From assembly GCA_001799285.1 (NCBI GenBank), contig MGTD01000064.1, positions 1 through 64,000 of the forward strand: DNA of 64,000 nt, read 5' to 3'. Position 1 is the first letter of the stretch, and every line of letters begins with the position of its first letter. This stretch comes from Deltaproteobacteria bacterium RIFOXYD12_FULL_56_24. GTDB lineage: Bacteria; Desulfobacterota; Desulfobulbia; Desulfobulbales; Desulfurivibrionaceae. Below, piece after piece: positions 3,170 through 59,157 of this stretch. The notes under the pieces are model-generated. The model made no database searches and was not told the origin of the DNA. It saw nothing but the letters and a program-made list of their open reading frames with translations. The position numbers and the translations under genes were made by a program.

Positions 3170-4266
<1,097 letters not shown>

Positions 4267-4318
4267 GTCTTTTGGAGGGTTCAGTGAGGAACCTTCATTC
4301 CCCATAAATCTCCTCATT

Positions 4319-4867: not shown

Positions 4868-5073
4868 GTAAGCGGTCACAAGGCCCCACATCTTGCGGCG
4901 ATCGGCCCGGTTCACGGACAAAAGTACGCATTCGCCGTCCCGCTTATAGCTGAGCTTGGCAGCTTGCCTGCCAAGAGAAACTTATACCCTCTGGGTGCGC
5001 GAACCTGCGGCACCCTGTGGCCGCTTATTTCGTGGTTATTTGACCTTTGTAGGCTTACCCCGTGATTGGTTAC
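4868..5073 (-). mobile_element. IS66-type MITE, subtype C, with perfect 8-bp target duplication
   Basis: The 206-bp element begins GTAAGCGGTCACA and ends CGTGATTGGTTAC (inverse GTAACCAATCACG). It is flanked on both sides by the direct repeat GTTAATGG (4860-4867, 5074-5081). Its larger part is an imperfect hairpin: GTAAGCGGTCACAAGGCCCC against GGCACCCTGTGGCCGCTTAT. The rest is an arm of about 45 bp. A family-A hairpin is inserted in the loop at 4947-5000. It separates cheY from cheX in the che cluster. Confidence 0.85.
4947..5000 (+). repeat. Family-A double hairpin nested in the MITE
   Basis: Stem CTTGGCAG (4956-4963), loop CTTGC, stem CTGCCAAG (4969-4976), then CTTATACCC-TCT-GGGTG. Both sides of the first stem differ from the common TTGAGCAG/CTGCTCAA in matching positions, so pairing is kept. 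Sister MITE copies lack this insert and read straight from CCCGCTTG into CCGCAACCTG. Confidence 0.75.
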
Positions 5074-6875: not shown

Positions 6876-6925
6876 GCGCTCCTTGTCCTGTAACCGTCAT
6901 GCCCCCAGGCAACAGACTTTATTTT

Positions 6926-7121
6926 GTAACTAGGCCCATCCGGGAACGGCCCTTTCGCCCGATTGCTGCGTTGCTCAGCCGCCGAAAAATGCCCACGTAC
7001 TGTATGCACGCGAAGTTTATGCCCCACAGGGGTGCCGTCCCGCTTCCCGCAACCTGGGGCACTGCTGAATAGTTACGGTTTGGTGGTTCGAGCCATTTCC
7101 GGCAGTAAGCTGAATAGTTAC
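6926..7121 (-). mobile_element. IS66-type MITE, diverged subtype B, at the cheR stop codon
   Basis: The element runs from GTAACTAGG to GCTGAATAGTTAC. Its arm (7063-7121) has GTTACGGTTTGG and ATTTCCGG in the same order as the other subtype-B copies, and the hairpin part keeps GCTGCGTTGCTCAGCC and the GCGAAG block. The flanks TTTATTTT (6918-6925) and TTCATTTT (7122-7129) match at 7 of 8 positions. The right-hand duplication contains the cheR stop codon (TCA on the plus strand at 7123-7125). Confidence 0.75.
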
Positions 7122-7122
7122 T

Positions 7123-7974
7123 TCATTTTTTCTGATATGCGGTCGCATCAATCTGAACAAAATTATGCTTCAACCCACTGATACTTTCGGAATGGCCGAT
7201 AAAAAGATAGCCGCCTGGGGTGAGCGCCTGGTAAAATTTGCTCACCAGCTCCTGTTGGGTTTCCCGGTTGAAATAGATCATGACATTGCGGCAGAAAATT
7301 ACATCAATGGCCTCGCGCCAGGGGAAGTCGCCCATGAGGTTGAAATGGTCAAAGTGCACCATCCGGCGCAACTCTTCCTTCACCTTCACATAGCCCTCTG
7401 AGTTGCCGACCCCTTTCTGAAAATATTTTTTCAAAAATGGCTTGGGCACCTTGGCAATCCTTTCCTCGGCATAGACTCCACTCTTCGCTTGCGCCAAAAC
7501 CTTACTGGAAATATCCGTGGCCATGATTCGATAACGCGTCCCAGCATGCTGATTGACAAAATTTGCCACCACCATGGCCATGGTGTATGGCTCTTCCCCC
7601 GAAGAACTGGCGGAAGACCAGAAAAGGATCTCCTTGTTTTTCCCCCGACCTTCCTTGACAAAGGCGGGCAAAACAATGGAGTCCAGGATCTCGAAATGGG
7701 AGTTTTCCCTGAAGAATGAAGTAAAATTGGTGGAAACGCTGTCAATGAACTGGACAAGCTCTGCTCCGGATCTATCGTTGACTAGATACTCATAGTACTC
7801 ATTAAACGATTCTATCCCGGTGGCCCGCAGTCTTTTGCCCAGGCGGGCGTTCAACAACTCTTTTTTTTCCGGCTTAAGAAAGATCCCAGTTTTTTCATAC
7901 ACCAGATCGCTGAATTTTTGAAACAATCCATCGGTGAGCCGCTGATAGCTGACTCCGTTAAAATTCGATGCCAC
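7123..7974 (-). CDS. cheR: Chemotaxis protein methyltransferase CheR
   Basis: CheR methylates receptor glutamates with SAM. The 283-residue protein has the all-helical N-terminal domain (DLVYEKTGIFLKPEKKELL, LGKRLRATGIESF). The Rossmann domain follows, with TNFTSFFRENSHFEIL, WSSASSSGEEPYTMAM, IDVIFCRNVMIYFN and GGYLFIGHSES, all standard CheR blocks. The start is GTG at 7974 behind AAGGGGGCGG. Its stop lies inside the target duplication of the adjoining MITE, so the element entered exactly at the 3' end without changing the protein. Confidence 0.95.
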   Translation of the reverse strand: MASNFNGVSYQRLTDGLFQKFSDLVYEKTGIFLKPEKKELLNARLGKRLRATGIESFNEYYEYLVNDRSGAELVQFIDSVSTNFTSFFRENSHFEILDSIVLPAFVKEGRGKNKEILFWSSASSSGEEPYTMAMVVANFVNQHAGTRYRIMATDISSKVLAQAKSGVYAEERIAKVPKPFLKKYFQKGVGNSEGYVKVKEELRRMVHFDHFNLMGDFPWREAIDVIFCRNVMIYFNRETQQELVSKFYQALTPGGYLFIGHSESISGLKHNFVQIDATAYQKK

Positions 7975-8013
7975 AAACCGCCCCCTTGTATCCAGACAAA
8001 AAAAATCCCCCTT

Positions 8014-8514
8014 TTAGGATTGCAAATGCTGCAACAGCCCTTCACCAACCACCCTGTTCACATCAAGCAATATCTTCACTTCGCCTTTCACTTTCGCCAT
8101 GCCCAGAATATTCTCGGTTTCAGATGAAGAACCGAGGGAGGGAGGCGGCTCGATTTCACCGGCAGAGACATTCAGGACTTCAGAAACTGAATCCACGACC
8201 ATGCCGACCTGCACCGGGGATGTTTGCCCCTGGACTTCGACCACTATGACACAGGTTCTCTCGTCGTAATCCTTGTGTTCCATGTTGAATTTTAGCCGCA
8301 GGTCCAACACGGGAATAACCTTGCCCCGCAGGTTGATTACTCCCTTAATATAGTCAGGGGTGTGAGGCACAGCCGTAATCTCCATAACCCCGATGATCTC
8401 CCTGACACTAAGAATTCCGACGCCGTATCCCTCATTCCCCAAGGAAAAGGTGAGATATTTCCCGGCCAGTTCGGTTCCTTGGCCTGTATTCTGCGCTGCG
8501 CTTGCTGCATCCAT
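8014..8514 (-). CDS. cheW: Chemotaxis coupling protein CheW
   Basis: CheW links chemoreceptors to the CheA kinase. The 166-residue product has KYLTFSLGNEGYGVGILSVREIIG, the central VINLRGKVIPVLDLR typical of CheW, and VGMVVDSVSEVLNV. ATG at 8514 is chosen because AAAAGGAGG lies 7 nt upstream. A longer in-frame extension to 8556 has no such site. It lies 45 bp after cheA and 39 bp before cheR. Confidence 0.95.
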   Translation of the reverse strand: MDAASAAQNTGQGTELAGKYLTFSLGNEGYGVGILSVREIIGVMEITAVPHTPDYIKGVINLRGKVIPVLDLRLKFNMEHKDYDERTCVIVVEVQGQTSPVQVGMVVDSVSEVLNVSAGEIEPPPSLGSSSETENILGMAKVKGEVKILLDVNRVVGEGLLQHLQS

Positions 8515-8559
8515 CGACAACCTCCTTTTCCGTGAAAGACCATACAGAACGGACAATAT

Positions 8560-10851
8560 TTAATCCGTATTATCGGCAATAACCCCAGCCAGATCAAGAA
8601 TAAGACCAACCCTGCCATCCCCGAGAATAGTCCCGCCGGCAACGCCGGGCACATCAATACCACCGAGATTTTTGATGACGACCTCCTCCTTACCCAAAAG
8701 TTCGTCAACCATCAAAGCGCGGCGTCTGCCCTCATTTTCCACCACCACGACAATGGCCTCACAGGGATCCGTATAGGTGGATGACACCCCGAATTTTTCA
8801 TACAACTTGATAATGGGCACCAGTTCGCCGCGCACCATCAAGTTTCCCCCCCGGCCATGCACCGTACTGTAGTTTTTCGGCTCGGGATGCACAGATTCCT
8901 GAATGGCAATGGTCGGGATGATATACCGTTCACTGCCGACCCGGACAATGATTCCATCGATAATCGCCAAGGTCAAGGGTAGACGGATCAGGAACAAAGA
9001 GCCTTTGCCGGGCTGGCTTTGCACCTCCACCTTGCCCCGCAGTTTTTCCACCGCCTTTTTCACCACATCCATGCCCACCCCACGGCCGGAAACATCGGTG
9101 ATCTTGTCAGCCGTGGAGAAACCCGGAAGAAAAACAAGATTGTTCAATTCAAAATCAGACAGGCTGTCAGCCTCACTGATCAACCCGCGCTCAATGGCTT
9201 TTTTTCTGATTTTCTGAGTGTTTAGCCCCTCACCATTGTCCTCGATCTCGATCATCATGCTCCCGCCTTTCTGGTAGGCGCGGAGAAAAACAGTGCCGGT
9301 TTCCGGCTTACCGAATTTCACCCGTTCGGCCGGGGTTGAAATACCATGGTCCACCGAGTTTCGCATCATGTGCACGAGAGGGTCATAAATTGACTCCACC
9401 ATGTTGCGATCAATCTCGGTATCGGCGCCCTCCATGACCAGATCAACCTTTTTTTCTGATTTTTTGGAGAGATCCCGAACCAGCCGAATCATTTTATCGA
9501 AGGTTTGCTTGATGGGAACCATGCGCATGGACATGGCCGTGCGCTGCAACTCAGAGGTGATTCGAGTCAACTGGGAAAAATCCTTGGTGAGCTTTGCATC
9601 GGCGATCCGGGAAACAAGCTTGTTCTGACGGACCAGCGACTGCATGATCACCAGTTCGCCCACCGCATTGACCAGGGCATCGAGTTTTTCCACGTCAACC
9701 TTGATGGAGGCGCCGATCTTTTTCGTACCCGAATCGGCCGCCGTACGGGCCGCAGAGGTTGCCTGGGACTGAGGGGCTCGCAATGAGGCGGCTCCAGACC
9801 CAGACACGGCCTTGGCAAAGGCCGGCTTGTCCGGGACAACGGCGGCAACCGTTTCATCCGGTAAAAGTTCATCCTCTTCGCTTTCGGAAACTTCCGGCGG
9901 CGAATCTGGAGCAGAAACAGAAACGACTTCAACCGGCGCAGCTCCGTCTCCCTCGTTTTGCAACTGGGTAATGCTCACCAGAAAGCCACTGATATCGGTA
10001 TCCTTGTAATTGGCCGGTCCGTTCTGCAAAACATCCTTAATGCCTGCAACCATGGACTTCAGCGCATCACCAACCGTCAGGACGATATCAATAACCGCAG
10101 AATCCATGGGCCGTTTACCATTGCGCACATCATCCAGCAGATTTTCCGTGGCATGGGCAAGACGGTTGATGGTTTTCAGATTGAGAAAGCCGGAAACCCC
10201 CTTGATCGTATGAAAAGGCCGGAAAATATTATTAATGATATCCATGTCATCAGGGCTCTGTTCCAGCTCAAGCACGTTGACCTCAATGGATTCGAGATGA
10301 TCAAAAGCCTCCTCGATAAACCCGGCCAGCAGATCCGTGTCCTGCAAGAAATCGGGGATCGCCCCTTGACCAGGCTCACTCGCAGCAGGAGCTTGCGCCT
10401 GGACCACCGCGCTTTTTTCCTCGATTATTGCCGCATCTTTGGTGTCGCCTGGCGCGGTAACTGCGGCATTGACTGAGCCGACAAGCGCCTCTGGCTCAAG
10501 GGAAAAGCCGATTTGTTTCATGTTAGCGCAAAATCTGGCAATGATTTCCGCACCGGGCCTCCCCTCTTTCCGGGCCGACTCCTGCATCTCGATCACACAT
10601 TGGCCCAGGAGATCATAATTTTCCGCGGAATCGGCCAGCTCTCCCATGATGAGTTTTTCAAGAACACCCTTGAAAGCGGCGGCCATTTGCTGGATCACTA
10701 CCGGCGTATCAGCAGCGGCGCCCCCAGGCAACAACTTTTCGATCAACTCAAGCAACTCTCCGACAATGGAAAGATCACCCGGCTCGATCATCAAAATCTT
10801 CAAGGCTACATCATCGAGAAGATCGGACAATGGTTTATCAGCAGCTGCCAT
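8560..10851 (-). CDS. cheA: Chemotaxis histidine kinase CheA
   Basis: CheA autophosphorylates on an HPt histidine and passes phosphate to CheY and CheB. The 763-residue protein has, in order: an N-terminal helical region of about 165 residues that is not an obvious HPt; the HPt domain with H214 (FRPFHTIKG); a low-complexity linker; dimerisation helices (KIDALV-type segment, QLTRITSELQRTAMSMRMVPI); the ATPase with N box MRNSVDHGI and G boxes DNGEGL and SGRGVGMD; and a C-terminal CheW-like domain. ATG 10851 follows AAGGAG; the longer open frame upstream runs through a MITE and is not coding. It is the first gene of the cluster. Confidence 0.95.
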   Translation of the reverse strand: MAAADKPLSDLLDDVALKILMIEPGDLSIVGELLELIEKLLPGGAAADTPVVIQQMAAAFKGVLEKLIMGELADSAENYDLLGQCVIEMQESARKEGRPGAEIIARFCANMKQIGFSLEPEALVGSVNAAVTAPGDTKDAAIIEEKSAVVQAQAPAASEPGQGAIPDFLQDTDLLAGFIEEAFDHLESIEVNVLELEQSPDDMDIINNIFRPFHTIKGVSGFLNLKTINRLAHATENLLDDVRNGKRPMDSAVIDIVLTVGDALKSMVAGIKDVLQNGPANYKDTDISGFLVSITQLQNEGDGAAPVEVVSVSAPDSPPEVSESEEDELLPDETVAAVVPDKPAFAKAVSGSGAASLRAPQSQATSAARTAADSGTKKIGASIKVDVEKLDALVNAVGELVIMQSLVRQNKLVSRIADAKLTKDFSQLTRITSELQRTAMSMRMVPIKQTFDKMIRLVRDLSKKSEKKVDLVMEGADTEIDRNMVESIYDPLVHMMRNSVDHGISTPAERVKFGKPETGTVFLRAYQKGGSMMIEIEDNGEGLNTQKIRKKAIERGLISEADSLSDFELNNLVFLPGFSTADKITDVSGRGVGMDVVKKAVEKLRGKVEVQSQPGKGSLFLIRLPLTLAIIDGIIVRVGSERYIIPTIAIQESVHPEPKNYSTVHGRGGNLMVRGELVPIIKLYEKFGVSSTYTDPCEAIVVVVENEGRRRALMVDELLGKEEVVIKNLGGIDVPGVAGGTILGDGRVGLILDLAGVIADNTD

Positions 10852-10954
10852 GCATGCACTCCTTAAAAAAAACAAATATCCATTGGAAGCCGGGACAAGG
10901 TTCGTATTATGCTTCCATCCTGCACAAACATCAATAAATATTGCAAGTTTTTTC

Positions 10955-11006
10955 GTAACTATCCAGCTCAAGGCCGGAAACGAACAAAAACAACCCAAAC
11001 CGTTAC
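10955..11006 (+). mobile_element. Minimal 52-bp MITE (arm only) with perfect 8-bp target duplication
   Basis: The element starts GTAACTATCCAGCTCAAGG and ends CCCAAACCGTTAC. It is identical to the arm of the 153-bp subtype-B elements but lacks their hairpin part. It is flanked by GTTTTTTC on both sides (10947-10954 and 11007-11014). The short form with its own duplication suggests that the arm alone could be mobilised, or that the hairpin was lost later between conserved ends. Confidence 0.85.
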
Positions 11007-11331
11007 GTTTTTTCTTGCCCCGCCCCTGATGAGGTCCGGATACGCCAACATGCCGCACTTCTCTTCGCACAATAATGGCCGAGAGGCATTTCTGCGCCCG
11101 ACCCACTCCACAAACGCTGTTCGCCAGGCCGGCCGGGGAAAACCACCATAACTATCCTGAATATTTAATAAAAATAAGCTACAACTCGAATAATGTCGCG
11201 TTTTTTCATTGCAGGAAGACAGGTTGTCCTGTAAAAGTGGCGAAGCATTATCCAGGGGGGGGGAATACTTTCCCAGCTGAAATAATCCGACAAGTTGACC
11301 AATCGCCAGGCCGTTGCAACCAGATAATATC

Positions 11332-11485
11332 GTAAGCGATCACATGGCACCACATCTTGCGGCGATCGGTCCGGCTCACGTACAAAAGTACGCTTCGCCG
11401 ACCCGCTTGCCGCAACCTGCGGCACCCTGTGACCGCTTATTCTGTGGTTATTTGACCTTTTTGGGCTTACTCCGTGATTGATTAC
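11332..11485 (-). mobile_element. IS66-type MITE, subtype C, with perfect 8-bp target duplication
   Basis: The 154-bp element begins GTAAGCGATCACATGG and ends CCGTGATTGATTAC. Both flanks are ATAATATC (11324-11331, 11486-11493). The internal hairpin pairs GTAAGCGATCACA with TGTGACCGCTTAT. The loop has TACAAAAGTACGC and CTTGCCGCAACCTGCGG. It is the least interrupted copy of subtype C. Confidence 0.88.
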
Positions 11486-11636
11486 ATAATATCATGCCCG
11501 GCACCACCGAACGGCGACAAAACGCTGCTTACGCTGCGGTTAAGGCGAGGGCCAGGCAGGTAGAGATTATTTCGTAACAGCTCCAAGGTTATGATCATTT
11601 TTTAGCAACGGGCTTACCGTAGCGGGAAAACACGGC

Positions 11637-13220
11637 TTGCATATTTATCCAAAGATTTTCAGACTTCTTTTTCCTCCCCTCCCCAGGATTTTCCTACTTC
11701 TGGCGGCAGCCGCTCTTGCCGTGAGCAGCTTAACCGCTTGTGCCCCGCTGACAAGTCCCGACTCGGACATGATCGCCCCGGAAAGCAGCCCCAGGTCGAC
11801 GGAGAAGAAAAAGACCGCGCCCTACACCTTGAAACAAAAAAACTCTTTCCCGCGAGAAGAAGAACCTGCCCCGGAAGAAGCAACCCTCCAAGCGCTCAGC
11901 CTGGCGGTAAGCCCGGAAATAAGCGAGATGGCGCAAGTCAACCCATGGGACGTGCTTCCCTTGCTAAGCACGGGGGAAGAAATCGAGGCCTACGATTTCC
12001 CGATCACCATGAACGAACAGGTGGAATACTACCTGGATTTTTTCACAAACCGCAACCGCAAGAACTTTGCCCGCTGGCTCGCCCGCTCCTCCCGCTATCT
12101 GCCCATGATCAAGGAAGAGTTCGCCAGGGTTGGCCTTCCTCTGGACCTCGCCTATCTGCCCATGATCGAAAGCGGCTTCAACACCACCGCCATTTCCAGG
12201 GCCAGCGCGGTGGGGACCTGGCAGTTCATGCGCGCCACCGGCATGAGCTACGGCCTGACGGTCAACAAGTATGTTGACGAGCGCCGCGATCCGGTAAAAT
12301 CGACCAAGGCGGCGGCAGCCTATCTTTCCAAGCTGTACAAGGATTTTGACTCATGGCATCTGGCGGTGGCCGCTTATAATGCCGGGGAAGGAAGAATCAA
12401 ACGGGCCATGAAGCAATCCGAAAAAGATGATTTTTGGGAAATTGCCAAGAGCCAATACATCCACTCGGAAACAAAACTCTACGTTCCGCAGCTCATCGCC
12501 GCCATCATGATTGCCAAGGATCCCGGGAAATACGGATTTCACGACATTGACTATGAAAATCCCCTGGAATACGAAACCGTCCATGTGCCAAGGGGAACAC
12601 CGATCAAGGCTGTCGCCGTGGCCTGTAATCTTCCCGACGAGAAGATTATCGCCCTCAACCGGCATCTGTCCATGGCGATCACTCCGCCGTCCGAAATGGA
12701 TTACCCTCTGCGGGTGCCGCCCGGCAGCAAGGATCTGGTGATTAACAACCTCCCCAGGGTTCGCCCGGTCACAATCACCGAGTTTAACATTCATGAGGTG
12801 GGGCGAGGAGAAACCTTGACCACCATCAGGAAGAAATACAAGCTCAGTAAAACCACCCTGCTCAAGGCGAACAATCTCCAATATGAGCGGCTTTCTCTGG
12901 GGCAGCGGCTAAGAATCCCCCACCAGACAACCTCCTACAAACTGACCGACGAGCCTTTACAACTAGAACCGGCATCGGCCAGCATCACCTTGTTTTCCTC
13001 ACGCCCAGAGCTGATCGACACCCCGGCCGACAAGAAAAAGAAAGCCGCCAACGTCAAAAAGAAAAAGACGCAAAAACCCGGCGAAAAAAGAGTCCTTGCC
13101 TCGCCGGCCAAGGGGAAAAAACCGGCTTCGAAAGCCAAGACTTCTCCAGCCAAGAAAGAAAAGACCAAAAAATCCCCGAAGCCATCACCCAAAAAATCCG
13201 GCTCCGGCAAAAAGAAATAA
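11637..13220 (+). CDS. mltD: Membrane-bound lytic murein transglycosylase D-like lipoprotein
   Basis: Lytic transglycosylases cleave the glycan strand of peptidoglycan to 1,6-anhydro ends. The 527-residue product has a lipoprotein signal with lipobox LTAC (C35). An SLT domain follows with catalytic E178 in LPMIESGFNTTAISRASAVGTWQFM and the helix AVAAYNAGEGRI. A LysM peptidoglycan-binding repeat lies around residues 390-434, and the final 70 residues are very rich in Lys, Pro and Ala. The start is TTG at 11637; the ribosome site is weak and the exact start is uncertain. A MITE is inserted directly at the TAA stop. Confidence 0.88.
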   Translation: MHIYPKIFRLLFPPLPRIFLLLAAAALAVSSLTACAPLTSPDSDMIAPESSPRSTEKKKTAPYTLKQKNSFPREEEPAPEEATLQALSLAVSPEISEMAQVNPWDVLPLLSTGEEIEAYDFPITMNEQVEYYLDFFTNRNRKNFARWLARSSRYLPMIKEEFARVGLPLDLAYLPMIESGFNTTAISRASAVGTWQFMRATGMSYGLTVNKYVDERRDPVKSTKAAAAYLSKLYKDFDSWHLAVAAYNAGEGRIKRAMKQSEKDDFWEIAKSQYIHSETKLYVPQLIAAIMIAKDPGKYGFHDIDYENPLEYETVHVPRGTPIKAVAVACNLPDEKIIALNRHLSMAITPPSEMDYPLRVPPGSKDLVINNLPRVRPVTITEFNIHEVGRGETLTTIRKKYKLSKTTLLKANNLQYERLSLGQRLRIPHQTTSYKLTDEPLQLEPASASITLFSSRPELIDTPADKKKKAANVKKKKTQKPGEKRVLASPAKGKKPASKAKTSPAKKEKTKKSPKPSPKKSGSGKKK

Positions 13221-13372
13221 TAACTATCCAGCTCAAGGCCGGAAACGAACAAAAACAACCCAAACCGTAACTATCCAGCAGTGCCGTAGCTGCTAGGCAG
13301 AAGCCTGCGAAGTGTGCGGGTGCCCATGAGCAGGCTGATAACAACGCAGATGCGGTGCTGCTGGATAGTTAC
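13221..13372 (+). mobile_element. IS66-type MITE, subtype B, at the mltD stop codon
   Basis: The element starts TAACTATCCAGC (first G lost or shared) and ends GCTGGATAGTTAC. A second GTAACTATCCAGCAG opens the internal hairpin, which closes with CTGCTGGATAGTTAC. The flanks AGAAATAA (13213-13220) and AAAAATAA (13373-13380) match at 7 of 8 positions, and the left one ends with the mltD stop TAA. Sequence and length are nearly identical to the copy at 30786-30938. Confidence 0.85.
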
Positions 13373-13413
13373 AAAAATAATCTCCCGACCGCAGCCTGAG
13401 GCATGAACACCTG

Positions 13414-17083: not shown

Positions 17084-17267
17084 GTAAGCGTTCAGCAGCA
17101 CCACATCTGCTTTGTCATCGGCATGCTTATGTGCAATAGCACACTTCGCAGGCCTCTTGGTCGGACACTTCTGCCGACGACTGACACGCGCATCTATCCG
17201 TGGGGCACTGCTGACGCTTACATTCCTGAGTTTATCTTAAATTTTGGTACCCCTGGTGAACGATTAC
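17084..17267 (-). mobile_element. IS66-type MITE, subtype D, with perfect 8-bp target duplication
   Basis: The 184-bp element begins GTAAGCGTTCAGCAG and ends GGTGAACGATTAC, flanked on both sides by CTTTCGGG (17076-17083, 17268-17275). The inner hairpin pairs GTAAGCGTTCAGCAGCACC with the downstream CTGCTGACGCTTAC. The arm that follows is about 46 bp, as in the other subtypes. The hairpin loop shares CACACTTCGCAGGC and the CATCTGC block with subtype B although the ends differ. It lies 38 bp before the hisHF start. Confidence 0.85.
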
Positions 17268-27106: not shown

Positions 27107-27229
27107 ATTCCATTTCTAAATCAAAACGATATTATTGGTAGGAGCGGCTTTAGCCGCGATGTCTTGCGGTTTCGCGGCTAAAGCCGCTCCTACCGTTTCT
27201 TGGTTTCACTATTGAAATAGAAATGGAAT
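27107..27229. repeat. REP-like inverted pair with outer inverted repeat
   Basis: The inner arms are GGTAGGAGCGGCTTTAGCCG (from 27137) and its perfect inverse ending at 27194, separated by 13 bp. The outer arms ATTCCATTTCTA (27107-27118) and TAGAAATGGAAT (27218-27229) are also perfect inverses. TAGGAGCGGCTTTAGCCGCG is a sequence type known from REP elements of pseudomonads and other gammaproteobacteria. It lies between convergent genes and can form a long hairpin, so it may also terminate transcription. Confidence 0.8.
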
Positions 27230-27243
27230 AACAACAGTACGGA

Positions 27244-30785: not shown

Positions 30786-32255
<1,470 letters not shown>

Positions 32256-37716: not shown

Positions 37717-38718
37717 ATGCCTGAACTACGCAAAGACCCGATCATTGGCCGCTGGATCATCATCTCCACCGAACGGGGCAAGCGGCCCACTGATTTCATT
37801 GTGGAAAAAAATGAAGGCAGGGGTGGATTCTGCCCCCTGTGCCCAGGCAACGAGAATACAACGCCTCCGGAAGTTCTCAGCTACTCCAGCATCGATGGCC
37901 ATCAAAACAACAAGCCGGGCTGGGATCTGCGGGTTGTCCCCAACAAGTACCCAGCCCTCGTCATCGAAGGCAATCTCAACAAGGAAGGGAATGGCCTCTA
38001 TGACCGGATGAACGGAATCGGAGCCCACGAGGTCATCATCGAGACCCCGGACCACAACGAATCCTTCACCAGACTGCCGCCGGAGCGCATGATCAAGGTT
38101 TTTCTGGCCTACCGGGATCGGCTGCTCGATCTAGCCCAGGATCCGCGCTTCCGTTATGTCATGGTTTTCAAGAATTTTGGCGCCGCGGCTGGAGCTTCCT
38201 TGGAACACTCTCACTCTCAGCTCATTGCCCTGCCCATTCTGCCGCGCATGATCAGCTCCGAACTCGAAGGGAGTCTTTCCTATTACAAATACAAGGAACG
38301 CTGCATTTTCTGCGATATTATCCGGCAGGAGCTAAACCAGAACCAGCGGGTGGTGGTCGAAAACGACCTGTTCATCACCATTGTCCCCTATGCGCCCCGC
38401 TCGCCTTTTGAAATGTGGATACTGCCCAAGCACCACGCTTCGTCATACCTTGCCATGGATGACAATCACTTCAAGGCTCTCACTGCGATTTTTTCCGAGA
38501 GCATGCGTCGGCTGGATGCCTGCATCCCCAATGTTCCCTATAATTTTGTCCTGCATGGCGCGCCCTTGCGCTCACAGCCCTTGGAGCATTACCACTGGCA
38601 TTTTGAAATCATGCCCAAACTGACGATGATTGCCGGTTTTGAATGGGGCTCTGGTTTTTATATCAACCCCATCCCGCCGGAAGAAGCAGCTCAGTTTTTA
38701 AGAGACGCGACGATTTGA
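37717..38718 (+). CDS. galT: Galactose-1-phosphate uridylyltransferase
   Basis: GalT exchanges UMP between UDP-glucose and galactose-1-phosphate (Leloir pathway). The 333-residue HIT-superfamily enzyme starts MPELRKDPIIGRWIIIST. It has metal-binding C39/C42 (FCPLCPGNE), the active-site block EHSHSQ with nucleophile H166, a second Cys pair region (CIFCDI), and HYHWHFEIMP near the C-terminus. Short bacterial and archaeal GalT-like proteins may also be nucleotide-sugar transferases of other specificity. A MITE begins 7 bp after the stop. Confidence 0.9.
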   Translation: MPELRKDPIIGRWIIISTERGKRPTDFIVEKNEGRGGFCPLCPGNENTTPPEVLSYSSIDGHQNNKPGWDLRVVPNKYPALVIEGNLNKEGNGLYDRMNGIGAHEVIIETPDHNESFTRLPPERMIKVFLAYRDRLLDLAQDPRFRYVMVFKNFGAAAGASLEHSHSQLIALPILPRMISSELEGSLSYYKYKERCIFCDIIRQELNQNQRVVVENDLFITIVPYAPRSPFEMWILPKHHASSYLAMDDNHFKALTAIFSESMRRLDACIPNVPYNFVLHGAPLRSQPLEHYHWHFEIMPKLTMIAGFEWGSGFYINPIPPEEAAQFLRDATI

Positions 38719-38725
38719 TGGACTC

Positions 38726-38879
38726 GTAACAACGCAACTGATCACGGGGTATGCCCCAAGAGGTAAAAGAACCACGGAATAAGCGGCCACAGGGGGCCGC
38801 AGGTTGCGGCAAGCGGGACGGCGATGCGTACTTTTGTCCGTGAGCCGGACCGATCGCCGCATTTGCACCTTTGCGTTAC
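38726..38879 (+). mobile_element. IS66-type MITE, subtype C, rearranged copy
   Basis: GTAACAACGCAACTGATCACGG to TTTGCGTTAC. The interior matches the other subtype-C copies (CCACGGAATAAGCGGCCAC, GCCGCAGGTTGCGGCAAGCG, GCGTACTTTTGTCCGTGAG, CGATCGCCGC), in opposite orientation to 11332-11485. No 8-bp duplication is found, and both ends are altered to CGTAAC..CGCAA/TTGCGTTACG. It is therefore an old or recombined copy. Confidence 0.7.
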
Positions 38880-38907
38880 GTTTTTTAGTTGTGACAAGAC
38901 CGTCAAG

Positions 38908-38959
38908 TCTGAATTGAACAGCTTGCCTGCTCAAACTAAACTTATGCCCTTTGGGTGTA
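38908..38959 (+). repeat. Family-A double hairpin next to a response-regulator start
   Basis: Stem TTGAACAG (38914-38921), loop CTTGC, stem CTGCTCAA (38927-38934; one A/C mismatch), then ACTAAACTTATGCCCTTTGGGTG with the second CCC-TTT-GGG hairpin. It ends about 12 bp before the start codon of the receiver gene and abuts its ribosome site AGAGGA. Confidence 0.7.
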
Positions 38960-45833: not shown

Positions 45834-46253
45834 ATGGCTGACGACCCGTTGAATGCCACCGGCACTAAGGCCGAGACAGATGGAGCCGGTGATGACTGGG
45901 CTGCCGCCTTGAACGAACAGGAAGGCTCCGAAAGGGCTCAGGCCCCTGCCTTTGCCGAATTGGGCACTACCGCGACCACCGCCCCGGCCGGCAGCCAGAA
46001 CCTCGACTTTTTGCTGGATATCCCTTTGGAAGTCACCGTGGAACTGGGGAGAACCAGCATGATCATCAACAAAATGCTGCAACTAACCCAAGGGTCGGTG
46101 GTCGAGCTCGACAAAGCAGCCGGAGAATCGGTGGAAATCTTTGTCAACGACAAGCTGCTGGGCAAAGGCGAAGTGATCGTGATCAACGAGCGATTCGGGG
46201 TGCGGATAACCGAGATTATCAGCCAGGCCGATCGGGTCAAAAATATCGCCTGA
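45834..46253 (+). CDS. fliN: Flagellar motor switch protein FliN
   Basis: The 139-residue product has a variable acidic N-terminal half and a C-terminal SpoA domain: NLDFLLDIPLEVTVELGRTSMIINKMLQLTQGSVVELDKAAGESVEIFVNDKLLGKGEVIVINERFGVRITEII. This is the standard C-ring FliN. The ribosome site AAAAGGAG precedes ATG 45834. A MITE is inserted 16 bp after its stop. Confidence 0.95.
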   Translation: MADDPLNATGTKAETDGAGDDWAAALNEQEGSERAQAPAFAELGTTATTAPAGSQNLDFLLDIPLEVTVELGRTSMIINKMLQLTQGSVVELDKAAGESVEIFVNDKLLGKGEVIVINERFGVRITEIISQADRVKNIA

Positions 46254-46269: not shown

Positions 46270-46475
46270 GTAACTACCAGCTCAAGGCCGGGAACGAACA
46301 AAAACAACCAAAACCGTAACTATCCAGCAGTGGTGTGCACCCAAAGGGCATAAGTCTCGTTTGGGCAGGCAAACTGCCCAACTCAGCTATAGCTGCTAGG
46401 CAGAAAAGCCGGCGAAGTGTTGGTGCCCATGAGCAGGCTGACAACAACGCAGATGCGGTGCTGCTGGATAGTTAC
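46270..46475 (+). mobile_element. IS66-type MITE, subtype B, between fliN and fliO, with nested hairpin
   Basis: The 206-bp element runs from GTAACTACCAGC (one base lost) to GCTGGATAGTTAC. Perfect direct repeats AGCCTGGC flank it (46262-46269, 46476-46483). It matches the copies at 13221 and 30786 except for a family-A double hairpin inserted in the internal stem (46335-46390). It lies inside the flagellar operon without breaking a gene. Confidence 0.9.
46335..46390 (-). repeat. Family-A double hairpin nested in the fliN-fliO MITE
   Basis: On the plus strand: CACCCAAAGGGCATAAG, then stem TTGGGCAG (46361-46368), loop GCAAA, stem CTGCCCAA (46374-46381), then CTCAGCTAT. Both strands of the stem carry the matching change relative to TTGAGCAG/CTGCTCAA. 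Nearly the same boundaries (ATAGCTGAG to GGGTGC) are found in the copy nested at 4947-5000. Confidence 0.78.
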
Positions 46476-52208: not shown

Positions 52209-52216
52209 GAACTGTG

Positions 52217-53488
52217 ATGCGAATCAAGCGTTTTGAAGCCTCGGACACCTACAGCGCCATGGCCATGGTCAAGGAAGAACTCGGAGAGGACGCCGTTATT
52301 CTTTCCACCAGAAGCCTTCCCGGCAAAAGCGGCTCAGCCGGAGGCAAAGCGATGATCGAGGTGGTGGCGGCCATTGAATATGACCCGGAGATTACCATGC
52401 CTCCACCCGAAGCGCCGGACAAGGAAACCCGGCGGACAAAAGCGGCGGGGTACGGCTATCACTCCGTGCGGCAGGCCTTGCTACCAAAGGCAAATGTTGC
52501 TCCCCGCCAGGCAATAGAGCAGACGACAGCGAAACCGGACACGACGCAACCCGGGTTTGAGAGCAGACTTTCCGCCGAGCTTACCGGCCGCACCCTGCCA
52601 ACCGACAAGAATGCCAAGACCGGCAAGACGGGAAAGGTCCATTTTGAGGCCAATGACCTCCGGCTCCGCTTTGCCAATTTTCTTCGGCGCCAATACTGCG
52701 CCAAGGAAGAGCTTGAAAGCCGCGCCATCCCGGGGCCGACCGCCGATCAAGCCGAACAGAAAACCACCAGGCCCGACCCGAAACAGGTTGCCCAGTGGCG
52801 GGACAAAATCATCGACCAGCTGCAGATAACCCCTCTGGCCATCGGGATCAGCAAGGCACCCACCGTGGTGGCCATGATCGGCCCCACCGGGGTGGGCAAA
52901 ACCACGACCGCCGCCAAAATCGCCGCCTGGTACAGCATCCATGAAGGGTTGCAGGTGGTACTCCTCTCCATGGACTGCTACCGCATCGGGGCCACGGACC
53001 AGCTGCGGACCTATGCCAAGATCATGCGCTTGCCCTGCGAAATAGCCCTACGCAAAAAGGATTTGCAGACGGCCATTCTCCGTCACCAGGACAAGGATCT
53101 GATCATCATCGACACCGCAGGCAAGAGTCCTTATGATTCAAACCACATTCGGGAACTGTCCGAATGGTTTTCCCTGGGAAACGAAATAGAGCCCTATCTG
53201 GTCCTCAGCGCCACCAGCAAAAAAGAAGACCTGCAACAAATCCTCGCCACCTATGAACCATTGCGAGTCAAGGGGTTGATCCTCTCCAAACTCGATGAAA
53301 CCAGGGCATACGCCACCCTCTGCCAGCTGCTGGCCGGGGCTGCGTTACCCATCTCCTGTCTATGCACCGGCCAGAGGGTTCCGGAGGATTTCCTCCTTGC
53401 CTCCCGGGAGTTCTTGCAGATCCTCTTTGGCCAGGGCTGGCAGGCAGCCGCCGGTGAGCTTGCCACCGAGGCCCAAGGCAAATGGTAA
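52217..53488 (+). CDS. flhF: Flagellar GTPase FlhF, 3' end replaced by a MITE
   Basis: FlhF is an SRP-like GTPase that sets flagellar position and number with FlhG. The 423-residue protein has an N-terminal basic domain (MRIKRFEASDTYSAMAMVKEELGEDAVILSTRSL), a Pro/Thr-rich linker, and an NG domain with P-loop GPTGVGKTTTAAKIA (about 222-236), MDCYRIGATDQLRTYA, IIIDTAGKSPYD and SKLDETRAYATL. The TAA stop belongs to the inserted MITE (GTAAGCG). At the other side of the element the frame would have read G-N-W-T-Q-stop, so only about three residues were altered. Confidence 0.94.
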   Translation: MRIKRFEASDTYSAMAMVKEELGEDAVILSTRSLPGKSGSAGGKAMIEVVAAIEYDPEITMPPPEAPDKETRRTKAAGYGYHSVRQALLPKANVAPRQAIEQTTAKPDTTQPGFESRLSAELTGRTLPTDKNAKTGKTGKVHFEANDLRLRFANFLRRQYCAKEELESRAIPGPTADQAEQKTTRPDPKQVAQWRDKIIDQLQITPLAIGISKAPTVVAMIGPTGVGKTTTAAKIAAWYSIHEGLQVVLLSMDCYRIGATDQLRTYAKIMRLPCEIALRKKDLQTAILRHQDKDLIIIDTAGKSPYDSNHIRELSEWFSLGNEIEPYLVLSATSKKEDLQQILATYEPLRVKGLILSKLDETRAYATLCQLLAGAALPISCLCTGQRVPEDFLLASREFLQILFGQGWQAAAGELATEAQGKW

Positions 53489-53627
53489 GCGATCACAGGG
53501 CACCACATCTTGCGGCGATCGGTCCGTCACGTACAAAAGTACGCATCGCCAGCCCGCTTGTCGCAACCTGCGGCACCCTGTGACCGTTTGTTCCGTGGTT
53601 ATTTGACCTCTTGGGGCATTTCGTTAC
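53485..53627 (-). mobile_element. IS66-type MITE, subtype C, supplying the flhF stop codon
   Basis: The 143-bp element begins GTAAGCGATCACAGGG and ends GGCATTTCGTTAC. The flanks GGCAAATG (53477-53484) and GGCAACTG (53628-53635) match at 7 of 8 positions. The hairpin GTAAGCGATCACAGGGCACC/GGCACCCTGTGACCG is well kept. The TAA in its first five bases ends flhF, and the flhG ribosome site follows 20-30 bp after its other end. Confidence 0.85.
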
Positions 53628-53664
53628 GGCAACTGGACTCAATGAACAAACCCTGGGAGAGATT

Positions 53665-55845: not shown

Positions 55846-56223
55846 ATGGCTGCTGATCCTAATATGAAAATTCTCGTTGTGGACGATTTTGCCACCATGC
55901 GGCGCATAATCAAGAATATTCTCACCCAGCTTGGCTTTAAAAACATTATTGAAGCCGACGACGGCACCACCGCCCTGAATGTTCTTAAATCAGAGAAAAT
56001 CAGCCTTATCATTTCGGACTGGAATATGCCCAAGATGACCGGCCTGGACCTGCTGAAAGCTGTGCGAGCAGATGCCGGCATGGCTGCGACCCCTTTCATC
56101 ATGGTGACGGCGGAAGCGCAGCAGGACAATATTATTCTGGCGGTCAAGGCCAAGGTAAGCCAGTACATTGTGAAACCGTTCACCGCTGAAACCCTTTCCG
56201 AGAAACTCAATAAAATATTCTGA
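55846..56223 (+). CDS. cheY: Chemotaxis response regulator CheY
   Basis: The 125-residue product is the closest to canonical CheY in the window: [25 protein letters not shown], phospho-acceptor D58 ([15 protein letters not shown]), T in MVTAEAQ and K in [16 protein letters not shown] is the classical motor-CheY motif. It would bind FliM when phosphorylated by CheA. A MITE target duplication (CTGATATA) contains its TGA stop. Confidence 0.96.
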
Positions 56224-56227
56224 TATA

Positions 56228-56439
56228 GCAACTGTTCAGCCTGGAGCCGGAAAGTGAGAAAAACCACCAAGCGTAACTGTTGCGCTGTGCCGCAGAGGCG
56301 CGACAGAGGCCTGATGGCTACCCCAGCGAAGCTGGATAAAAAGCCCCCATATCCGGTCCCCGGACCAAAGGGTTCTAAACAATTCGTATGCGTTCAGGCC
56401 GATAACAAAGCAGCTGCGGTGCTGCGACTGGACAGTTCC
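56228..56439 (+). mobile_element. IS66-type MITE, diverged subtype B, at the cheY stop codon
   Basis: The 212-bp element begins GCAACTGTTCAGCC and ends CTGGACAGTTCC, with perfect flanking repeats CTGATATA (56220-56227, 56440-56447). An arm of 45 bp leads to GCGTAACTGTTGCGCTGTGCCG. The right part keeps CAGGCCGATAACAAAGCAGC and GCGGTGCTGC, as in subtype B. The loop also holds the GC palindrome GGTCCCCGGACC. The left target copy includes the cheY stop. Confidence 0.85.
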
Positions 56440-56451
56440 CTGATATAAGCC

Positions 56452-57547: not shown

Positions 57548-58762
57548 ATGGACACAGGTGATACCGCATTCATGCTGATTGCCACCGCCCTGGTCATGCT
57601 GATGACCCCGGGGCTGGCCCTTTTTTATGGCGGTATGGTCCGCTCGAAAAATGTCTTGAGCACCGTGTTGCAGAGTTTTGTCTGTCTTGGCGTTGTTTCG
57701 ATAATCTGGGTACTCTACGGCTACTCCCTAGCCTTTGGCCCGGACGTAAACGGCCTGATCGGCAATCTCGACTGGGCTGGCCTGGCGGGGGTCGGCCTTG
57801 AGCCGGGCAAATATTCGGCAACCATCCCTCACCTGCTGTTCTGCGCCTTTCAGCTGATGTTCGCCGTCATAACCCCGGCCCTGATCACCGGCACTTTTGC
57901 CGAGCGGGTCAAATTCCCTGCCTTTCTCCTGTTCACCGTTCTCTGGTCCACTCTGGTCTATCTCCCCGTCTGTCACTGGGTCTGGGGCGGAGGCTGGATC
58001 AGCGGCCACGGCGGTCTTGATTTCGCGGGCGGCACCGTAATCCACATCAACTCAGGCGCGGCAGCCCTAGTCGCCGCTTTGATGTTCGGCAAGCGCAAAG
58101 GCTGGGGCAAGGAGTCCTTTCATCCCCATAATCTGACCATGACCATGTTGGGCGCCGGCATTCTCTGGTTCGGATGGTTCGGCTTTAACGCCGGCAGCGC
58201 CCTATCGGCAAACGGTGTCGCGGTCAACGCATTCTTTACCACCCAGGTCGCCACCGGCGCGGCCCTGCTTTCCTGGCTGATCGCGGAATGGCTGGTGCAG
58301 GGCAAGCCCACCACTCTTGGCGCTGCCTCCGGCGCCATCGCCGGCCTTGTCGCCATCACCCCGGGGGCCGGGTTTGTCGGCTCCACCTCGGCGGTACTCA
58401 TCGGCCTGGTGGCCGGCGCCCTCTGCTACTTCGCGGTGCTCGCCAAGAGCCGGCTAGGATACGACGACGCCCTGGATGTAGTCGGGGTTCATGGCGTGGG
58501 CGGCCTCTGGGGCGCGCTGGCCACCGGCCTGTTCGCCACCACTGCGGTTAATGCCGCAGGCAAGAACGGCCTCTTTTTCGGCAATCCCCAGCTCTTGGGA
58601 ATCCAGGCTATGGATGCCTTGACAACCATTGCCTACTCGGTTGTGGTAACATTTATTATCCTCAAGATTGTTGACTTGGTGATTGGTCTGCGGGTAAGCG
58701 AAGAAGAAGAGGTACAGGGGCTGGATCTGAGCCAGCACAGCGAAATCGGGTATTCACTATAA
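57548..58762 (+). CDS. amt: Ammonium transporter
   Basis: Amt proteins are trimeric channels for ammonium. The 404-residue protein has about 11 spans and the family motifs DTAFMLIATALVMLMTPGLALFYGGMVRSKNVLSTVLQS, LVYLPVCHWVWGGGW, DFAGGTVIHINSGAAALVAAL, FGWFGFNAGSAL and DVVGVHGVGGLWGALATG, which contain the twin pore histidines. The cytoplasmic tail binds PII, encoded by the next gene. A short MITE-like remnant follows the stop. Confidence 0.95.
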   Translation: MDTGDTAFMLIATALVMLMTPGLALFYGGMVRSKNVLSTVLQSFVCLGVVSIIWVLYGYSLAFGPDVNGLIGNLDWAGLAGVGLEPGKYSATIPHLLFCAFQLMFAVITPALITGTFAERVKFPAFLLFTVLWSTLVYLPVCHWVWGGGWISGHGGLDFAGGTVIHINSGAAALVAALMFGKRKGWGKESFHPHNLTMTMLGAGILWFGWFGFNAGSALSANGVAVNAFFTTQVATGAALLSWLIAEWLVQGKPTTLGAASGAIAGLVAITPGAGFVGSTSAVLIGLVAGALCYFAVLAKSRLGYDDALDVVGVHGVGGLWGALATGLFATTAVNAAGKNGLFFGNPQLLGIQAMDALTTIAYSVVVTFIILKIVDLVIGLRVSEEEEVQGLDLSQHSEIGYSL

Positions 58763-58763
58763 C

Positions 58764-59157
<394 letters not shown>

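Follow-up and report, generated by a model that had tools for sequence, protein, structure and literature searches.

The location bias of miniature inverted-repeat transposable elements (MITEs) in bacteria is usually attributed to gene avoidance. According to the published account of QMITE1 and QMITE2 in Coxiella burnetii, every functional gene affected has the element at its 3′ end, several end on a stop codon that the element contributes and some copies lie in frame within open reading frames (PMC5896051). That account gives about 50 copies per family, lists 11 genes, describes short 2–4 bp repeats for QMITE1 and calls the reason for the 3′-end location unknown (PMC5896051). The Neisseria Correia/NEMIS, pneumococcal RUP and enterobacterial RU repeats are described as MITE-like and mostly intergenic, with strong RNA hairpins and some in-frame fusions (PMC2229807, PMC2759123), and RUP has been tied to an IS630 transposase (PMC2229807). 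Here we analyse MITEs with IS66-type ends in a 64,000-nucleotide (nt) stretch, the window (contig MGTD01000064.1; G000:C64:1-64000), of the 3.04-Mb draft genome of Deltaproteobacteria bacterium RIFOXYD12_FULL_56_24, whose window genes have their protein matches among metagenome-assembled genomes of uncultured Deltaproteobacteria/Desulfobulbaceae. The bias of these elements can be quantified, with maxima only a few bases from stop codons and ahead of ribosome sites. We favour, at a probability of roughly 55%, a reading in which insertion prefers the untranslated edges of translation units and selection for intact protein then acts on the result.

We sampled 1.95 Mb of the genome (64%) in two data sets, one of 1.25 Mb that includes the window and hence the prompting cases, and a further 0.70 Mb that excludes it. 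An assumption-free scan for GTAA...TTAC ends with an exact 8-bp duplication returned 57 elements in 1.25 Mb, and eight control tetramer pairs yielded 0–2 each in the same scan. With a terminal inverted repeat (TIR) matrix that permitted one or two mismatches, the census reached 169 elements with near-exact duplications (110 in the first data set, 59 in the second). The TIR consensus is GTAA(C/G)(C/T)(A/G)N(T/C)CA(C/G), and the elements are MITEs in that they are short, end in inverted repeats, duplicate their target, lack a transposase and occur in many copies. Most are 153–156 bp long, and a 206–208 bp class holds an additional 53/54-bp module. The elements fall into three related families, of 46, 99 and 24 copies, with a common layout: a TIR and a linker of about 46 nt are followed by a hairpin (about 106 nt) bounded by a TIR at each end, giving three TIR copies. 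A chimeric copy (C2:24294-24446) holds a family-2 interior within family-1 ends, which suggests exchange between elements. The hairpin core is about 80–86% conserved across families of the order and occurs in every genus member as well as in some other families; a near-identical stretch in genome G028 (97% over 90 bp) suggests transfer between lineages.

Because exact 8-bp duplications are general, we dropped a TA-duplication (IS630-type) reading of the ends. GTAA ends with an 8-bp target duplication are those of IS66-derived MITEs, and the elements are putatively placed in that class by ends and duplication only, because no IS66 transposase is visible in the genus. Elsewhere in the order, genome G048 carries a 1.73-kb IS66-family element (L167:1343-3071; PF03050, 5.7e-47) with the 13-bp TIR GTAACTATCCAGC at both ends, as in the MITEs, and the 8-bp duplication GAATATTT. 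No long element with the same ends was found in the sampled DNA.

Genes were called with our own simple dicodon-model finder (1,146 + 660 genes, 88% coding) after each element and one duplication had been excised in silico, and apparent start-proximal insertions within coding sequence were excluded as probable start miscalls. The offset of the 8-bp target past the nearest stop is denoted d, so that at d 0..5 the stop codon lies within the duplication. At d 0..9 we found 32 of 122 intergenic elements, against 7.6 expected under uniform intergenic placement or 9.2 when placement was weighted by a target matrix whose training copies lay far from stops (p=4e-9); at d -1..+3 there were 24, against 4.2 or 5.9, respectively (p=2e-8). 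The second data set replicated the excess, with 15 of 59 elements at d 0..9. The first-pass annotation of the window had proposed a preference for gene 3′ ends, to be judged by distance to the nearest stop and start codon; the distances do not fit random intergenic placement and support the proposal. It is scarcely credible that our own gene calling or spurious element ends produced the excess: although the gene finder is simple and takes the place of a standard annotation, stop positions are independent of start choice, orthologues confirm the ends of cheR, mltD and flhF, and the excess at d 0..9 persists with high-scoring long genes only (21 versus 5.2 expected) and with exact duplications only (18 versus 5.9).

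A transposase recognizing stop-like sequence would produce such an excess if stops simply fitted its preference for AT-rich 8-bp targets. The targets are indeed AT-rich at their six central positions, with G/C edges, and targets like NNNTAANN recur among the elements. We nevertheless consider this explanation very improbable, as a 3.5-fold excess survives weighting by the target model and an excess is also present where the target misses the stop triplet, at +6 to +9 (10 versus 3.6 expected) and at -16 to -8 (9 versus 5.5, though there mainly one phase is tolerated). The enrichment around stops thus covers about -16 to +9. A transposon specific for stop codons was rejected, since insertion is not confined to the stop triplet, and the stop codon as such is probably not what is recognized.

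A zone of equal enrichment precedes start codons by 10–39 nt and lies immediately 5′ of the Shine-Dalgarno sequence; the copy at 30786 before purA is an instance of it. In a logistic model that includes the 8-mer score and local AT content, the odds ratio is 4.3 for positions 0–9 past a stop (z 6.7) and 4.3 for positions 10–39 before a start (z 7.7). The earlier claim that stop codons are targeted therefore holds for the stop-proximal excess, which is real, and is too narrow in its wording, having captured only half of a pattern that is better described as 'edges of translation units'.

In the window, the pattern is represented by the following genes and elements:
6926..7121, minus strand: MITE 3′ of cheR, between duplications TTTATTTT (6918-6925) and TTCATTTT (7122-7129), a 7/8 match
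7123..7974, minus strand: cheR (PF01739, 1.5e-62)
11637..13220, plus strand: mltD-like lytic transglycosylase, SLT and LysM (PF01464 and PF01476)
13221..13372, plus strand: MITE at the mltD stop, left end without the first G, between duplications AGAAATAA (13213-13220) and AAAAATAA (13373-13380), a 7/8 match
37717-38718: galT
38726..38861, plus strand: truncated copy about 7 bp 3′ of the galT stop
45834-46253, plus strand: fliN (PF01052)
46270..46475, plus strand: 206-bp MITE 16 bp 3′ of the fliN stop, duplication AGCCTGGC
52214..53488, plus strand: flhF, an SRP54-type GTPase (PF00448)
53485..53627, plus strand: MITE in the final flhF codons, between duplications GGCAAATG (53477-53484) and GGCAACTG (53628-53635)
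55846..56223, plus strand: cheY-like response regulator (PF00072), its TGA (56221-56223) within the duplication
56228..56439, plus strand: older MITE at the cheY stop, exact duplication CTGATATA (56220-56227 and 56440-56447)
57548-58762: amt (PF00909)
58764..58801, plus strand: 38-bp stub with GTAAC...GTTAC ends, 2 bp 3′ of the amt stop

The first-pass annotation had read the duplications at cheR, mltD and cheY as enclosing the stop of the upstream gene, the element at 53485 as creating a stop, and the copies at fliN, galT and amt as lying 16, about 7 and 2 bp beyond one; each of these readings agrees with our gene models, the amt stub being without a matching duplication. The cheR TGA sits within the right duplication (7122-7129) and the mltD TAA (13218-13220) within the left; three mltD orthologues of other genomes (L248, L249 and L252) have an empty site and a TAA at the same point. 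flhF ends through the G|TAA of the element (TAA 53486-53488), and its C-terminus reads ...GKW* in the window versus ...WTQ* in 11 genus relatives with empty sites, so the insertion costs the protein only its last two residues (TQ). In a second species (G011), an element lies about 20 bp 3′ of the flhF stop (L288), so the flhF-flhG gap has been struck at least twice.

A gene read into either end of an element encounters G-TAA, and insertions near gene ends follow the codon phase accordingly. Of 33 insertions in the final 45 nt of a gene, 26 have the sole phase that makes the element TAA an in-frame stop (p=1e-7); the second data set contributes 9/11 and genome G007 4/4. Five further insertions lie deep in convincing genes, and all are copies of 154 or 208 bp, lengths that become divisible by 3 once the 8-bp duplication is added, and have the phase in which the reading frame stays open across the element (5/5). 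These copies (C9:12145, C60:13270, C60:23261, C7:70961 and one in C32) add 54 or 72 codons and then rejoin the host frame. The phase bias and the open-frame deep insertions are signatures of selection for intact protein; together with flhF, they bear out the earlier suggestion that protein-sparing insertions are selected.

We envisage two layers. In the first, AT-rich 8-mers at the untranslated margins of translation units would be preferred for insertion; these margins run from roughly 16 nt before the end of a gene to 10 nt beyond the stop, and also cover the interval 10–40 nt ahead of a start. In the second, selection would retain the insertions that leave the protein whole. Such insertions copy the stop in the left duplication or end the frame with the G|TAA of the element; within a gene, they are 154- or 208-bp copies that preserve the frame and leave it open. 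This protein-level filtering is strongly supported, although we infer rather than observe it, and likewise we infer that the edge enrichment reflects insertion choice rather than retention.

Pure tolerance, in which insertion is random and only sites beside stops or before ribosome sites are harmless enough for copies to persist, would account for coding interiors that are nearly element-free; the phase bias proves that filtering is strong, and the Coxiella account, as far as it addresses the point, prefers C-terminal tolerance (PMC5896051). Four observations make it unlikely as a full explanation. The interiors of convergent gaps contain neither promoters nor ribosome sites that an insertion could damage, yet element density falls 13-fold, from 2.18 per kb at 0–9 bp from the stop to 3 elements in 17.8 kb at at least 20 bp (Fisher 7e-5); in tandem gaps, the density is 2.0 near the stop and drops to 0.2–0.4. 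Insertion of one element into another should do no harm, yet the 29 kb of element DNA contains not a single nested copy; with the near-stop density as the neutral rate, about 14 would be expected there. A position just 5′ of the Shine-Dalgarno sequence is unlikely to be the safest place. Finally, an identical 8 bp at cheR was struck twice: the site is empty in the orthologues of 10 relatives, and in a sister species (G010, L303:2342-2682) those 8 bp over the cheR stop are taken by an independent element of 341 bp (ACGATGAA versus AAAATGAA), whose similarity to the window MITE is confined to the TIRs and which is the sole duplication-bounded element in 153 kb of relatives' loci. The convergent-gap gradient, the lack of nesting, the Shine-Dalgarno zone and the double hit at cheR all argue against pure survival.

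Alternatively, copies could be kept because a hairpin in the 5′ or 3′ untranslated mRNA stabilizes or tunes the transcript. The core hairpin is strong (z-scores -3 to -9), 20 of 34 pairs show two-sided changes in at least one sequence, G.U pairs are conserved on one strand and both hot zones would fall in untranslated mRNA. We regard positive retention as rather unlikely all the same, because TIR function and copying among elements can likewise maintain pairing, the orientation with the weaker hairpin is somewhat commoner near stops (45/73, p=0.06), and the bias shows no age dependence, with young copies as fully biased as old ones (8/25 versus 31/144), which argues against gradual retention. 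The hairpin is also not an intrinsic terminator, as no U-run follows it, and a search of Rfam gave no match above the gathering score. The first-pass suggestion that elements add a 3′-end hairpin to mRNA is thus right about a strong, covarying hairpin and at odds with the lean towards the weaker strand at stops; an mRNA-hairpin role is possible but unsupported. Taken together, these points on survival and retention favour insertion choice followed by protein-level filtering. How an IS66-type system, of the DDE class, might find such sites is a more tentative matter: it could sense translation-unit edges, for example as transcribed DNA without coupled ribosomes, which would generate the paired hot zones, but we hold this mechanism to be doubtful.

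Several points weigh against insertion choice with filtering. Choice and retention are not fully separable from existing insertions, the transposase domain PF03050 was absent from the draft sequences of this genome and of 16 genus relatives, the stop-proximal excess replicates weakly in other families of the order (4/19 near stops, from small samples), and G007 yielded only 4 elements. The comparison with an unrelated 53-bp repeat is mixed, in that free copies show no enrichment 0–9 bp past stops, yet 9 supply a stop. This 53/54-bp repeat (CACCCAGAGGGTATAAGTTTCGTTTGAGCAGGCAAGCTGCTCAACTCAGCTTTA) has 124 copies in 1.95 Mb, 42 within MITEs and 52 free; in the window it occurs at 4215-4267, 38904-38956 and inside 4868-5073 and 46270-46475. 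In the 9 stop-supplying free copies, the gene stop coincides with the TTTA end of the repeat (TAAA on the complementary strand), with orientation nearly always the same. Because its own end supplies stops, the module is only partly usable as a control.

The remaining elements of the window are as follows:
4868..5073, plus strand: 206-bp family-2 MITE with the 53-bp module, 18 bp beyond a stop, duplication GTTAATGG
10955..11006, plus strand: 52-bp linker-only copy with GTAAC...GTTAC ends, exact duplication GTTTTTTC
11332..11485, plus strand: 154-bp family-2 MITE, duplication ATAATATC
17084..17267, plus strand: 184-bp MITE 38 nt upstream of a start, duplication CTTTCGGG
30786..30938, plus strand: 153-bp MITE directly 5′ of the Shine-Dalgarno sequence of purA (PF00709), duplication GATTGCGG
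A long inverted repeat at 27115-27230 (TAGGAGCGGCTTTAGCCGCGA...TCGCGGCTAAAGCCGCTCCTA), 3′ of a FadL-like gene, is perhaps another small repeat family.

The codon-phase signature shows how an element with its own TAA can insert at a gene end and leave the protein unharmed, and the question of target choice or tolerance becomes testable in one assay. As a warning for annotation, annotated C-termini in such genomes are partly transposon-written.

Among known systems, IS66 insertion sequences share the GTAA ends and the 8-bp duplication; the MITEs described here differ in their length of 153–210 bp, the absence of a transposase, the added hairpin core and the third TIR copy. The IS66 subgroup relevant for comparison is presumably the ISBst12-like one, with a single tnpC, and our literature search on IS66 target choice found nothing. 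Rickettsia palindromic elements are open palindromic elements that enter genes in frame, whereas in-frame genic copies are a minority here and most copies lie at gene edges. For Correia/NEMIS, RUP and RU, the sources, as far as they cover these features, describe no comparable 8-bp duplication or stop clustering (PMC2229807, PMC2759123). The nearest described behaviour is that of the QMITEs, which are likewise small mobile elements at gene 3′ ends that sometimes supply the stop. The relevant part of the Coxiella account contains no statistical test (PMC5896051); what sets the present elements apart from those it describes is their 8-bp duplications and IS66-type ends, their number (169), the test of codon phase and the second zone of enrichment before starts.

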